The notes under the pieces: model-generated | What the model was told of the DNA's origin: nothing | Database searches by the model: none | Seen by the model: only the letters and a program-made list of their open reading frames with translations | Assembly (NCBI RefSeq): GCF_009863985.1 | Contig: NZ_WEZT01000021.1 | Location: forward strand, 34,969 to 98,968 | DNA length: 64,000 bases | Source of the DNA: Furfurilactobacillus milii | Lineage (GTDB): Bacteria; Bacillota; Bacilli; Lactobacillales; Lactobacillaceae | Direction: 5' to 3' | Shown: piece by piece, positions 56,248-59,314 of the stretch | How positions within the stretch are numbered: position 1 is the first letter of the stretch | How the letters are laid out: each line of letters begins with the position of its first letter | Made by a program: the position numbers and the translations under genes

Positions 56248-56280
56248 GAAATCACTCCTTACAAGTTAACTAGATAGGTG

Positions 56281-56304
56281 TTAAGCGAGAAGAAAATATT
56301 TCAT
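56281..56304 (-). CDS. Leader peptide MKYFLLA ahead of the ABC-F gene
   Basis: A seven-codon ORF with an excellent ribosome site (GGGGAGG, seven bases before the ATG), ending 33 bp before the ABC-F start. It is too short for gene finders. Stalling leader peptides of this kind commonly induce ABC-F resistance genes. Confidence 0.6.
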   Translation of the reverse strand: MKYFLLA

Positions 56305-56323
56305 TTTATAACCTCCCCAGAAC

Positions 56324-56398
56324 GTGCCAAGACAGTCCAGACATGCGGGGAAGCGCACAAAAAAAGAGTCCACCCCCGCAACATGTAACTGCTGGCAC
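56324..56398 (-). promoter_or_regulatory. Large leader hairpin of the ABC-F gene
   Basis: On the minus strand GTGCCA, CAGT, ACATG and GCGGGG pair in order with CCCCGC, ATGT, ACTG and TGGCAC downstream. Its 5' half can instead pair as AGT-CCA with TGG-ACT, which is followed by seven T, a possible attenuator. The competing folds suggest regulation. Confidence 0.5.
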
Positions 56399-56517
56399 TG
56401 AATGAATTCACAACTATCTATTGAAGTGTCTTCGCAGAGGGCAAACGAGACCAATTCCTGTTGTCTTCTGGATATTCGTAGATAAAATTATGAGTTCACT
56501 TAGTTCCAAAACAGTTA

Positions 56518-56529
56518 TTAGTTGCGCAT
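56518..56529 (-). promoter_or_regulatory. Minimal ORF MRN-stop at the start of the ABC-F leader
   Basis: ATG-CGC-AAC-TAA preceded by AAGGAG nine bases upstream, just after the promoter. A three-codon ORF with a good ribosome site may be a stalling or regulatory element. Confidence 0.4.
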
Positions 56530-56577
56530 CGGCGGATCTCCTTAAAAATTTTAGTATTGGTAAATCATTTCGATAAT

Positions 56578-56606
56578 AATGTAACGGTTTTTGGAGCGGC
56601 TGTCAA
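56578..56606 (-). promoter_or_regulatory. Promoter of the ABC-F gene
   Basis: TTGACA and TACATT (minus strand) are separated by exactly 17 bp. Transcription would start near 56571, giving a leader of over 300 bases. Confidence 0.7.
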
Positions 56607-56805
56607 GAAAGAATGCCTTTAGCGTTGGGTTTCAGGATACATAATGTCGAGAAATACTAAGTTTTGTTCAGTTATTTTGATCTCCAAAAGTTCTTATCAT
56701 ATGTGGATATGGATGCTTAAGGTTAATTTTGTGCTCTTAAGAAGAGGTTACGTTCTGAAGTTTACCGATTGCAATTTTTTTGGAGTTTCGGTACACTATT
56801 AAACG

Positions 56806-56816
56806 GTAATCATTAC
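56806..56816 (+). promoter_or_regulatory. Zur-type zinc operator
   Basis: GTAATCATTAC, a perfect palindrome of the core found in Firmicutes Zur boxes (GTAATNATTAC), lies 34 bp before the znuA start. Predicts zinc repression of the operon. Confidence 0.75.
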
Positions 56817-56849
56817 TTTTTACATATTGATTGCAGAAAGGACATTCTT

Positions 56850-57782
56850 TTGCGACAACATAAACGTGGCTTACATATTTTCAGTATTATAGCATTACTC
56901 TTAATCGCATTGACTGTTAGCTTAGTAGTGGATCAACGAAGAATGATTGCGCGAGCTAAACCGACCTCAAAAATTCGCGTGGTAAGTTCACTGGATTTCT
57001 ACGCTCAGGCCGCCAGCGCAGTGCTGGGGCAATATGGTCAGGTGACGGCTGTTATTAACAGCCCTAGCATTGACGCGGAAAGCTTTGAGCCAACGACGCA
57101 CACAGCAAAGCAGGTTGCTAAGGCTGATGTGATCATTGAAAATGGTTTGGGTTATGATGACTGGTTGGGAAAAGTTGTGGCAGCGAATGGCCAGGAGAAG
57201 CGCACCATTAATGTTGGGACAGCTTTGATGCACCGACAGGTTGGCGAGAATCCTCACATTTGGTACAATCCGCAGACGATGCCACGCTTAGTTGCACAGA
57301 TGGTAACACGCTTTTCGCGTTTGCAACCTGAGCATAAAGCGACTTTTAAACGGAATGCCGACCGTTACCTCGAGACACTGTCATCGTGGAAAAAGACGAT
57401 TAAACAGCTAAAGCGGACAGGTCATCATCAAGCGGTCGCTGTTAGTGAGCCGGTGTTCAATGACACATTATCGGCAGTAAATTTAAAAGTCACTGATAAT
57501 CATTTTGCCCGTGCTGTTGAAGAGGGAACCGATCCATCGCCAGCAGACATTGCCAAACTAACGCGTGATTTTAAACAACACAGGGTTGCCTTATGGGTTG
57601 TGAACACGCAGAATTCACAGCCAATTGTGAACTCAATGACCAAACAAGCGCGTCGCTACCACATTCCAGTGGTTCAAGTGACGGAAACGTTGCCGTCCAA
57701 TCAGTCGTACGCACACTGGATGACCAATGAATTGAACCAAGTCAAAACTGCGTTAGAGGAGGACAATCAGCATGGCAAGTAA
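56850..57782 (+). CDS. znuA: Zinc/metal ABC transporter substrate-binding protein
   Basis: A 310-residue ZnuA/TroA-type protein. The start is TTG 56850 with AAAGGA upstream; the longer frame to 56769 would cover the Zur box and lacks a ribosome site. An N-terminal helix (about 9-29) anchors it, but no lipobox Cys is present. NPHIWYNPQTM supplies one metal His. Two other usual His positions carry Glu: DAESFEPTT (usually DPHSFEP) and VSEPVFNDTL (usually H). It overlaps znuC by 11 bp. A Zur box upstream makes zinc the likely substrate. Confidence 0.85.
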   Translation: MRQHKRGLHIFSIIALLLIALTVSLVVDQRRMIARAKPTSKIRVVSSLDFYAQAASAVLGQYGQVTAVINSPSIDAESFEPTTHTAKQVAKADVIIENGLGYDDWLGKVVAANGQEKRTINVGTALMHRQVGENPHIWYNPQTMPRLVAQMVTRFSRLQPEHKATFKRNADRYLETLSSWKKTIKQLKRTGHHQAVAVSEPVFNDTLSAVNLKVTDNHFARAVEEGTDPSPADIAKLTRDFKQHRVALWVVNTQNSQPIVNSMTKQARRYHIPVVQVTETLPSNQSYAHWMTNELNQVKTALEEDNQHGK

Positions 57783-58524
57783 TGAGACGCATCAAAAGAT
57801 TGATCCCAATGATCAACCTGACAGCCAACTAACCGAAGATACCATTATGACCGTGGATAAACTGGGGATGAAGTTTGGTCAAAAAACGGTGTTTCAAGGA
57901 CTCACGTTCACGTTAAAGCGTGGCGAATTCCTTAGCGTACTTGGCGAAAATGGGATTGGTAAAACAACCCTTATACGAATTTTACTCCAACAACTGCGGC
58001 CCACGGCTGGCGAAGTTTCGTTTTTGCCGAGTCGCTCCCAGGTAACGATCGGTTACGTTCCGCAATTTAGAAACGTTGATACCGAGTATCCGTTAACCGT
58101 GAAAGATTTTGTGGGTTTGGCACTACATGATCACTTAACGCCATGGTGGTCTAAACACGAAAAGCAACGCTTGAATCAAGTGTTGCACGAAACAGATTTG
58201 ACGCGAATCGCGCACACACCGCTTGGCCGTGTTTCTGGTGGTGAGTTACAGAAAGCTTATTTGGCTCAAGCTTTGATTCGACTGCCACAGTTGTTGATTT
58301 TGGATGAATCGACTGCCAGTTTGGATAACAACATGAAGTTTGAATTGCTGGACTTGCTTAAACAATATCAGCAGCAAACACAGGCAGCAGTCATCTTCGT
58401 AACGCACGATTTGCCATTAACAAAGAAGTATTCTACCAACTTTTTGTTAATGCAGCCGGGCCCGTATCAACTGGGCACGATTGACGAATTGAACGAAACG
58501 GTACTGGAGGCGGCTCATGCTTAA
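57772..58524 (+). CDS. znuC: Zinc ABC transporter ATPase
   Basis: A 250-residue ATPase. Walker A GENGIGKTTLIRI, signature RVSGGELQKAYLAQAL, Walker B LLILDESTASLD (Ser replaces the usual Pro) and FVTHDLPL. GAGGAGG precedes the ATG inside znuA. Eight bases overlap znuB. Confidence 0.9.
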   Translation: MASNETHQKIDPNDQPDSQLTEDTIMTVDKLGMKFGQKTVFQGLTFTLKRGEFLSVLGENGIGKTTLIRILLQQLRPTAGEVSFLPSRSQVTIGYVPQFRNVDTEYPLTVKDFVGLALHDHLTPWWSKHEKQRLNQVLHETDLTRIAHTPLGRVSGGELQKAYLAQALIRLPQLLILDESTASLDNNMKFELLDLLKQYQQQTQAAVIFVTHDLPLTKKYSTNFLLMQPGPYQLGTIDELNETVLEAAHA

Positions 58525-59314
58525 TTATCCATTTATGCAAAATGCCTTTGCGGCGGGCACATTAATCGCAATTGTCAGCGGTATCGTTGGGGTCTTTGTG
58601 GTCGCTCGAAACATGTCTTTTTTAACACATACATTATCTGAAATTGGTTTCGCTGGGGCAGCTTTCGGATTGTTTGTGGGCTGGACACCATTGGCGGGGA
58701 TGCTATTATTTACCAGCGTCAGTTCTGTCGCCGTTGGTCAATTAAGTAGTAAGGCATCCCGTCGTGAGGCGGCGATTACCTCGATTTCAGCGTTGGCGAT
58801 TGGGCTGGGAATTTTGTTCTTGTCGCTATCAAACCAAAATGCCAGTTCAGCTACAAATATTTTGTTTGGCTCGGTCATTGGGATCAGCCGGACATCTGTA
58901 CTGCAAGTTGCTATTTTAGCCTTGGCAGTGATTGTGGTAATTATGGCGGTGTACCGAAGTTTGAAGTTTGATTCGTTTGACGCTGTCGGAGCGCGGGTTG
59001 CCGGTATTCATGGCACCACACTGGCCATCATCTTTCTGGTTGCATTAGCATTTTCAGTCAGTGTGGCCGCTCAAATCGTGGGCTCCCTGTTAATCTTTAT
59101 CTTGCTTACATTACCTGCTTCTGCGGCAAAATATTTTGCACACGGTGTTGGCAGCATGATTGGCCTAGCCATTCTATTTGCTTTGATTGGTGTGTGGCTC
59201 GGTTTGGCGCTGAGCTACTGGACAAACTGGCCGGTCTCTTTCTTCATTGCCGTCATTGAAGTTCTGTTTTACTTTATTGGTCTGATTTTTAATCGCTTCA
59301 CAGCACGAAATTAA
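58517..59314 (+). CDS. znuB: Zinc ABC transporter permease
   Basis: A 265-residue ABC-3 permease with seven to eight helices. GIVGVFVVARNMSFLTHTLS with EIGFAGAAFG is the family motif, and GSLLIFILLTLPASAAKYFA is also typical. Last gene of the zinc operon; a terminator follows. Confidence 0.9.
   Translation: MLNYPFMQNAFAAGTLIAIVSGIVGVFVVARNMSFLTHTLSEIGFAGAAFGLFVGWTPLAGMLLFTSVSSVAVGQLSSKASRREAAITSISALAIGLGILFLSLSNQNASSATNILFGSVIGISRTSVLQVAILALAVIVVIMAVYRSLKFDSFDAVGARVAGIHGTTLAIIFLVALAFSVSVAAQIVGSLLIFILLTLPASAAKYFAHGVGSMIGLAILFALIGVWLGLALSYWTNWPVSFFIAVIEVLFYFIGLIFNRFTARN

Follow-up and report, generated by a model that had tools for sequence, protein, structure and literature searches.

A three-codon reading frame and a predicted fused hairpin ahead of an ABC-F gene in Furfurilactobacillus: a probable ribosome-mediated transcription attenuator

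Lactobacillaceae matter in food safety reviews of intrinsic drug resistance. In Furfurilactobacillus milii, a gene for an ABC-F protein of the ribosomal-protection type is preceded by two very short open reading frames, uORF1 and uORF2, and by a long stretch of predicted pairing. This arrangement raises the question of whether, and by what means, the leader controls the gene. It was studied in a stretch of 64,000 nucleotides, referred to here as the window. The answer put forward is that the leader is likely to be a ribosome-mediated transcription attenuator of an intrinsic ABC-F gene in Furfurilactobacillus, in which a stall on uORF1 would block the terminator and uORF2 would act as a coupler.

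The nature of the protein is consistent with such control. It scored 420.9 bits with NF000355, the NCBIfam model of ribosomal-protection ABC-F proteins, against a curated cut-off of 380. The nearest family model, NF000170 for the named Vga family, gave 427.7 bits, under its cut-off of 725, and the protein is therefore Vga-like rather than Vga. Among solved chains, it comes nearest to Vga(A) (7nhl), Lmo0919 (7nhn) and 5zlu, which carries the name of a macrolide efflux protein. The protein is Vga/Lmo0919-like and, by analogy with such homologues, may protect ribosomes and confer resistance. The nearest named contigs belong to F. milii (two contigs) and F. rossiae DSM 15814, with protein identities of 97-98%. 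On the other side, divergent from the ABC-F gene, the frames at 56769-59314 (plus strand) resemble a solute-binding protein, an ABC-transporter ATPase and a permease, of the metal-uptake type by eye.

The features of the leader are collected in Table 1. An earlier note on this DNA had described a consensus promoter ahead of the tiny frames, an MRN frame with AAGGAG, and an MKYFLLA frame with GGGGAGG lying 33 bp before the ABC-F start. All of these were recovered, and the spacing between the end of uORF2 and the ABC-F ATG (56247) is exactly 33 nt. A sequence-only model of the SD and uORF1, called R1, was trained on 34 out of 53 different leader pieces and finds a single such leader in the window's genome. 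The whole-leader fold has a z of -2.97 (100 shuffles). A known Rfam element was rejected as the identity of the leader, as nothing relevant matched: the window gave no match at the gathering score, the segment 56200-56680 only two weak, unrelated matches at E <= 10, and nine related loci tRNA only.

Table 1. Features of the leader and its gene in the window. L009-L012 are the four other Furfurilactobacillus leaders.
Feature	Position	Strand	Basis
Sigma-70 type promoter, TTGACA-17-TACATT	56578..56606	minus	10/12 consensus matches; hexamers alike by eye in L009-L012
SD of uORF1, AAGGAG, within terminator 5' arm	56538..56543	minus	
uORF1, ATG CGC AAC TAA (MRN), ATGCGCAACTAA	56518..56529	minus	M-R-[N/I] in 73/100 homologous loci; R1 match E 2.4e-5
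One long hairpin, 63 predicted bp, ending in U7: predicted fused SL-1/intrinsic terminator, 5' arm = uORF1 ribosome-binding site	56359..56543	minus	Predicted fold; same topology in L009-L012
Terminator 3' arm, CAGTTACATGTTGCGGGGGTGGACTC	56366..56391	minus	
Terminator U7 tract	56359..56365	minus	T6 in L012
Hairpin CUUCCCC...GGGGAGG, predicted to sequester the uORF2 SD in read-through RNA	56312..56353	minus	Predicted unpaired probabilities
SD of uORF2, GGGGAGG	56318-56312	minus	
uORF2, MKYFLLA, ATGAAATATTTTCTTCTCGCTTAA	56281..56304	minus	By position in 5/5 Furfurilactobacillus leaders
SD of ABC-F gene, AAGGAG	56260-56255	minus	
ABC-F ribosomal-protection gene, 487 aa	54784..56247	minus	NF000355 score; closest solved chains Vga(A) 7nhl, Lmo0919 7nhn

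Homologous loci were sought in 397 Lactobacillaceae genomes, the window's included, and 99 of them held an ABC-F match at E <= 1e-60 (101 match rows). One fragment of 78% identity (L013, genome G142) ends at a contig edge and was excluded from all leader counts, giving 100 loci; R1 found no match in that genome, which is 87% complete. L059 and L101 were kept despite short upstream stretches (257 and 233 nt). The conservation of both tiny frames, which the earlier note had proposed as a check, proved uneven. A frame reading [AUG/GUG/UUG]-Arg-[Asn/Ile]-stop, here M-R-[N/I], stands 120-460 nt upstream of the match start in 73 of the 100 loci, and uORF2 is conserved by position within the genus only, with a varying peptide.

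The leaders of Furfurilactobacillus share a peculiar predicted structure; all leader folds described here are thermodynamic predictions. In all five, the 12 nt that precede the U-tract are paired at 10-12 positions with the ribosome footprint of uORF1, and one and the same arm serves uORF1 and the terminator; none of the five shows distinct hairpins for anti-antitermination and termination. An intrinsic terminator, a hairpin followed by U7, is predicted between uORF1 and the gene. The earlier note had seen seven T inside a long pairing region. The tract exists, but it sits at the 3' edge of the stem and not in its middle, which is the proper place for a terminator U-tract. The predicted single hairpin comprises 63 pairs for the window, of which 23 have their 5' side at -17 to +16 of the uORF1 start, and 51 pairs for L012, of which 26 do so. 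Shuffles that kept uORF1 fixed were run for the window, L011 and L012. Taken from 30 nt ahead of uORF1 as far as the U-tract, the folds reached z values of -4.7, -6.6 and -7.5, a stability that 0 of 1000 shuffles attained in any of the three, and the duplex of the two arms alone was matched by 1, 0 and 0 of 1000. Pairing of the footprint at the U-tract is not extremely rare in such shuffles (25, 33 and 1 of 1000). When the footprint was blocked, the predicted energy of the window's fold up to the U-tract rose from -61.1 to -33.7 kcal/mol; in the predicted structure, occupancy of the uORF and the terminated fold are incompatible.

The most distant leader, L012, belongs to a protein of 66% identity and keeps the shape with other letters. 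For instance, the pair at -9 is G-C in the window and C-G in L012. Its upper stem counts 81 nt vs 126 in the window, and 54 of 76 aligned bases are identical. Of the five leaders in the genus, four hardly differ (L009-L011 are close copies), so that the set amounts to only two independent structural observations. Judging from these folds, the sensor stem itself has become the terminator in Furfurilactobacillus, because the arm before the U-tract pairs with the uORF1 footprint and blocking the footprint weakens the fold. A stem of 63 bp is, however, unusually long for an intrinsic terminator, and this counts against the attenuator reading. At 130-176 nt after the uORF1 start, L012 also has a second hairpin, GUCCAUU...AAUGGAC followed by UGUUUUU, which resembles a residual local terminator and is possibly an evolutionary intermediate. 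Outside the genus, 9 of 68 leaders have, besides their local terminator, an extra U-run pairing with the uORF1 footprint at no fewer than 6 of 12 nt (>=6), and the fused form is therefore not wholly unique. In L045 and L080, a U5 run 71 and 94 nt after uORF1 follows a stem of the uORF1 region (10/12 nt), besides the local terminator; this arrangement hints at how the fusion of stem and terminator could arise.

The course of events is inferred, from termination and stalling to the identity of the inducing drugs and the part played by uORF2, and would be as follows. Without drug, a ribosome on the three codons of uORF1 would depart at once; the SD and codons of uORF1 would then pair with the segment before U7, and the one long hairpin would end transcription ahead of the gene. 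The inducers would be drugs that stop ribosomes at initiation or at the first peptide bonds, namely lincosamides, pleuromutilins and streptogramin A. In their presence, a ribosome arrested on the start codon of uORF1 would cover the 5' arm, the terminator could not close, and RNA polymerase would go on to transcribe the ABC-F gene. On the resulting read-through transcript, uORF2 would probably be the first to load ribosomes and would open the ABC-F start region for coupled initiation. A more far-reaching version can be tentatively sketched, although it is rather unlikely. Furfurilactobacillus would have condensed the leader to a direct-occlusion device, in which one giant hairpin is both sensor stem and terminator, no antiterminator exists and one ribosome on the three codons would settle whether transcription goes on; the freed canonical start site would have passed to a new uORF as a second, translational gate, possibly for another drug class.

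Leaders of the other genera allow the logic of the attenuator to be examined comparatively. They look like that of vmlR in Bacillus subtilis, with a first stem-loop (SL-1), a local terminator and a sequestered SD, and the predicted layouts match closely as far as the available excerpt of the vmlR account goes (PMC9226507). A local terminator hairpin with a U-run occurs in 67 of the 68 leaders outside the genus; L086 has no qualifying U-run. RNAalifold consensus folds of the genus labels g16, g38 and g3/g30/g21 were too blurred on their own, and an anchored pairing count was used instead. It covers the 43 leaders, out of 73, in which GGGAU[U/C] occurs just once at 55-125 nt after uORF1. The stretch following the uORF1 codons pairs with this motif in 94% of cells over eight pairs, vs 14-59% when the pairing is slid by -2 to +3; the G pairs in this count are partly set by selection, as the leaders were chosen for the motif. 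Two outer pairs, +8 and +10, are kept less often, in 27 and 23 leaders out of 43. An alternative partner of the element GGGAUURAU is the downstream AUYAAUCCC, present in 36 of the 43 leaders, and its CCC lies by eye opposite GGGGG of the gene's SD. At one position in these 36, all three partners change together: C-G-C in 15, U-A-U in 12, wobble C-G-U and U-G-C in 4 each, and a breaking U-A-G in 1. Such joint change is evidence, from comparison, of two pairings that exclude each other. Thus, the canonical relatives, with the same logic and a three-way covariation, support the attenuator reading.

Two further features were noticed in canonical leaders. In those of g38 (e.g., L033), a recurrent hairpin about 35-70 nt after uORF1, ending in GGGGUGGACUGUC and a U-run, resembles by eye the pause hairpin SL-2 of vmlR. 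In L023 and L032 (g16), whose leaders are displaced to -414 and -427, a frame of 90-92 codons starts at the site of the canonical SD and runs, in a different phase, across the beginning of the ABC-F gene.

The same attenuator might be controlled mainly at the level of translation. Read-through would then be constitutive, and a ribosome stalled on uORF1 would free GCGGGG of the terminator 3' arm for pairing with CCCCGC (56350-56345), exposing the SD of uORF2 and thereby the ABC-F gene. The canonical relatives do possess such an element in the pairing of GGGAUURAU with AUYAAUCCC, and CplR and VmlR have a translational layer according to the excerpts available (PMC10201436, PMC9226507). Upon blocking uORF1, the predicted unpaired probability of the uORF2 SD increases from 0.00 to 0.23 in the window and from 0.00 to 0.28 in L011. 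Nevertheless, it hardly moves in L009 (0.24 to 0.33), L010 (0.14 to 0.16) and L012 (0.18 to 0.24), and the switch is clear in only 2 of the 5 genus leaders. The 63-bp stem, moreover, ends exactly at the U7 tract, and control mainly by translation appears improbable. The competing hairpins of the earlier note fared unequally in this respect: the terminator stem is strongly supported, but the downstream GCGGGG/CCCCGC pairing, which forms only after the U-tract has been transcribed, is weaker and by eye mismatched or weakened in two of the four close genomes (L009, L010).

The second frame has features that could suggest a second sensor. All five genus leaders have it at -55 to -57, with a strong SD, and its SD and start occupy the place of the canonical ABC-F SD, downstream of the CCC element. 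If both uORFs, or either of them, were needed for full expression, precedents would exist in the short hydrophobic leader MsrDL (MYLIFM; PMC10314930) and in ErmB, which requires two leader peptides (PMC8274638), both known here from parts of the accounts. However, the four close genomes encode MKYFLLA, and L012 encodes MKFRTLTVALSLL, with a stop that overlaps the ABC-F SD; uORF2 is thus conserved in place and not in peptide. Among the 94 loci outside the genus analysed for it, 13 have, within the final 130 nt, a short ORF with an SD score of at least 5; by eye, most of these are unrelated, and none is similar in peptide and place. There is little to recommend two sensors. It is more in keeping with a conserved place and an unconserved peptide that uORF2 is probably a translational coupler. 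Short frames in g17 (MQSH, MQ) over the probable ABC-F start were not counted as uORF2. In L031 (g13), where no M-R-[N/I] was found, a uORF MSTAMLLF with the SD GATAGGAGG precedes the ABC-F start, and in the predicted structure this SD is enclosed by the hairpin AAACCU-CUAUC/GAUAG-AGGUUU; this independent arrangement resembles a second uORF.

The case for uORF1 as a translated sensor rests on its recurrence. The tripeptide is MRN in 63 of the 73 loci and MRI in 10, and the runner-up residue pair in three-codon frames occurs in 6 of the 100 loci only. In the controls, M-R-[N/I] appeared in 65 of 10000 mononucleotide shuffles and in 0 of 100 reverse strands, and its recurrence in these sequences is not chance. 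By genus label, it was found in all loci of g1 (5/5), g38 (21/21), g3 (5/5), g17 (4/4), g30 (2/2) and g14 (1/1), in 23/24 of g16, 7/10 of g19, 3/4 of g13, 1/5 of g21 and 1/6 of g29, and in none of the 13 loci of g4, g11, g12, g20, g22, g24, g36 and g37. The 27 ABC-F loci of the 100 without it, among which are near misses such as MCN (L036), MRF (L023) and MKN (L065), count against the attenuator reading. Purine-rich, SD-like stretches precede the frames. The start codon is ATG in 64, GTG in 6 and TTG in 3 loci; arginine is encoded by CGC (41), CGT (27), AGA (4) and CGG (1), and the third codon is AAC (58), AAT (5) or ATC (10), always followed by TAA (73/73). Synonymous variation around an invariant stop points to selection on the translated peptide, although related genomes are not independent. 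Given that these three codons reappear ahead of related genes across much of the family, uORF1 is very probably an antibiotic sensor.

It could be argued that uORF1 is kept only as an arm of the RNA and that its translation is irrelevant, as its codons sit within the stem. This is very improbable in view of the exchange of starts, the AGA among the arginine codons, the AAC/AAT variation, the fixed TAA and the SD-like stretches ahead, and conservation as a mere by-product of pairing was rejected on the codon variation. Furthermore, the frame stays in Furfurilactobacillus while its paired partner has been rebuilt.

The model R1 also speaks to specificity. In the 397 family genomes it gave 69 matches at E <= 2e-4, 68 of them within 500 nt upstream of ABC-F matches. 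The remaining one (G020) lies at a contig end, and the ABC-F gene of that genome begins near the end of another contig. Because leaders of this sort went into the training of R1, what carries information is the lack of any strong match at another gene; weaker matches in the family genomes (E 0.002-0.05) lie elsewhere, with few exceptions. At class level, 37 of 398 genomes, the window's included, had a match at E <= 0.05. The four strongest besides the window's (L147, L149, L150 and L151, of 36 genomes) are not at ABC-F genes: three fall within a long open frame, and one has CTG for the start codon and precedes a gene that is TetR-like by eye. A spread beyond Lactobacillaceae was rejected on these four strongest of the 36 class-level matches; the other 32 are weaker (E 0.01-0.05). 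Least probable of all is that MRN serves not drug control but the sensing of general translation or amino-acid stress, e.g., arginine or asparagine starvation, for although the strong conservation of MR[N/I] means that codon 2 matters, strong R1 matches are confined to the ribosomal-protection ABC-F gene, and VmlR-type tripeptide leaders, in the excerpt available, answer PLSA drugs at initiation (PMC9226507).

The earlier note had likened the leader to peptides that stall on drug-bound ribosomes. For uORF1, a stalling attenuator is well supported, because the frame is deeply conserved in both its peptide and its codons, the predicted terminator is built on its ribosome-binding site and the protein family is the right one. 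For uORF2 as a second drug-sensing peptide the idea found no support, as its place and SD strength are a genus feature and its peptide differs in the deepest member.

Nor is the shortness of the peptides, which had seemed odd, an obstacle in the case of uORF1. According to the portions of the published accounts drawn on here, tripeptides are typical, with MIN, MR[I/M] and MK[L/Q] for VmlR, CplR and VmlR2 (PMC9226507, PMC10201436). The MIN frame controls VmlR through stalling with lincosamides and pleuromutilins (PMC9226507), MR[I/M] is the uORF of the CplR leader (PMC10201436), a three-residue ORF senses lincomycin for Lmo0919 (PMC8079631), and are5sc has the overlapping uORFs MLV and MRS, one of which is translated (PMC12421871). 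B. subtilis vmlR resembles the window in its three-codon uORF in the first stem-loop, intrinsic terminator, SD-sequestering hairpin and PLSA-type ABC-F protein. It differs in having four separate stem-loops, with SL-1 as anti-antiterminator and SL-3 as terminator, whereas SL-1 is the predicted terminator in the window, which also has a second uORF and MRN instead of MIN (PMC9226507). The cplR leader of Clostridioides difficile shares the M-R-x tripeptide, the uORF in a 5' hairpin, a terminator and a sequestered SD; in contrast, its separate terminator hairpin also holds the gene's SD, and the excerpt describes one uORF (PMC10201436). In Listeria rli53/lmo0919, whose product Lmo0919 is closely homologous to the window protein, a three-residue ORF overlaps the anti-antiterminator and lincomycin relieves termination, but the arrangement is of the anti-antiterminator/antiterminator type and the excerpt describes no second uORF (PMC8079631). 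The msrD gene, also of the ABC-F type, offers a stalled ribosome that directly prevents a Rho-independent terminator. Its arrest peptide MYLIFM, however, has six residues and responds to macrolides, and its terminator, of only -7.9 kcal/mol, lies between leader ORF and gene (PMC10314930). Two short leader ORFs, ermBL and ermBL2, also precede the resistance gene ermB, which nonetheless encodes an rRNA methylase under translational attenuation and has a longer leader (ermBL residues to K27 are named) (PMC8274638). In the light of these precedents, the window's leader would belong to a known kind of attenuator.

In a literature consisting mostly of sources outside subscription journals, no published account was found of the MR[N/I] sensor of Lactobacillaceae or of a fusion of sensor stem and terminator. 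MR[N/I] would add to the known tripeptides a sensor present in much of the family. Lincosamide-type drugs are thought to be little context-dependent, and why particular tripeptides are needed is a question raised in the excerpt on cplR (PMC10201436). The conserved arginine at codon 2, combined with a free choice of codons, bears on this question. Finally, the version found in Furfurilactobacillus suggests that the switch can be rebuilt while the sensor stays fixed.
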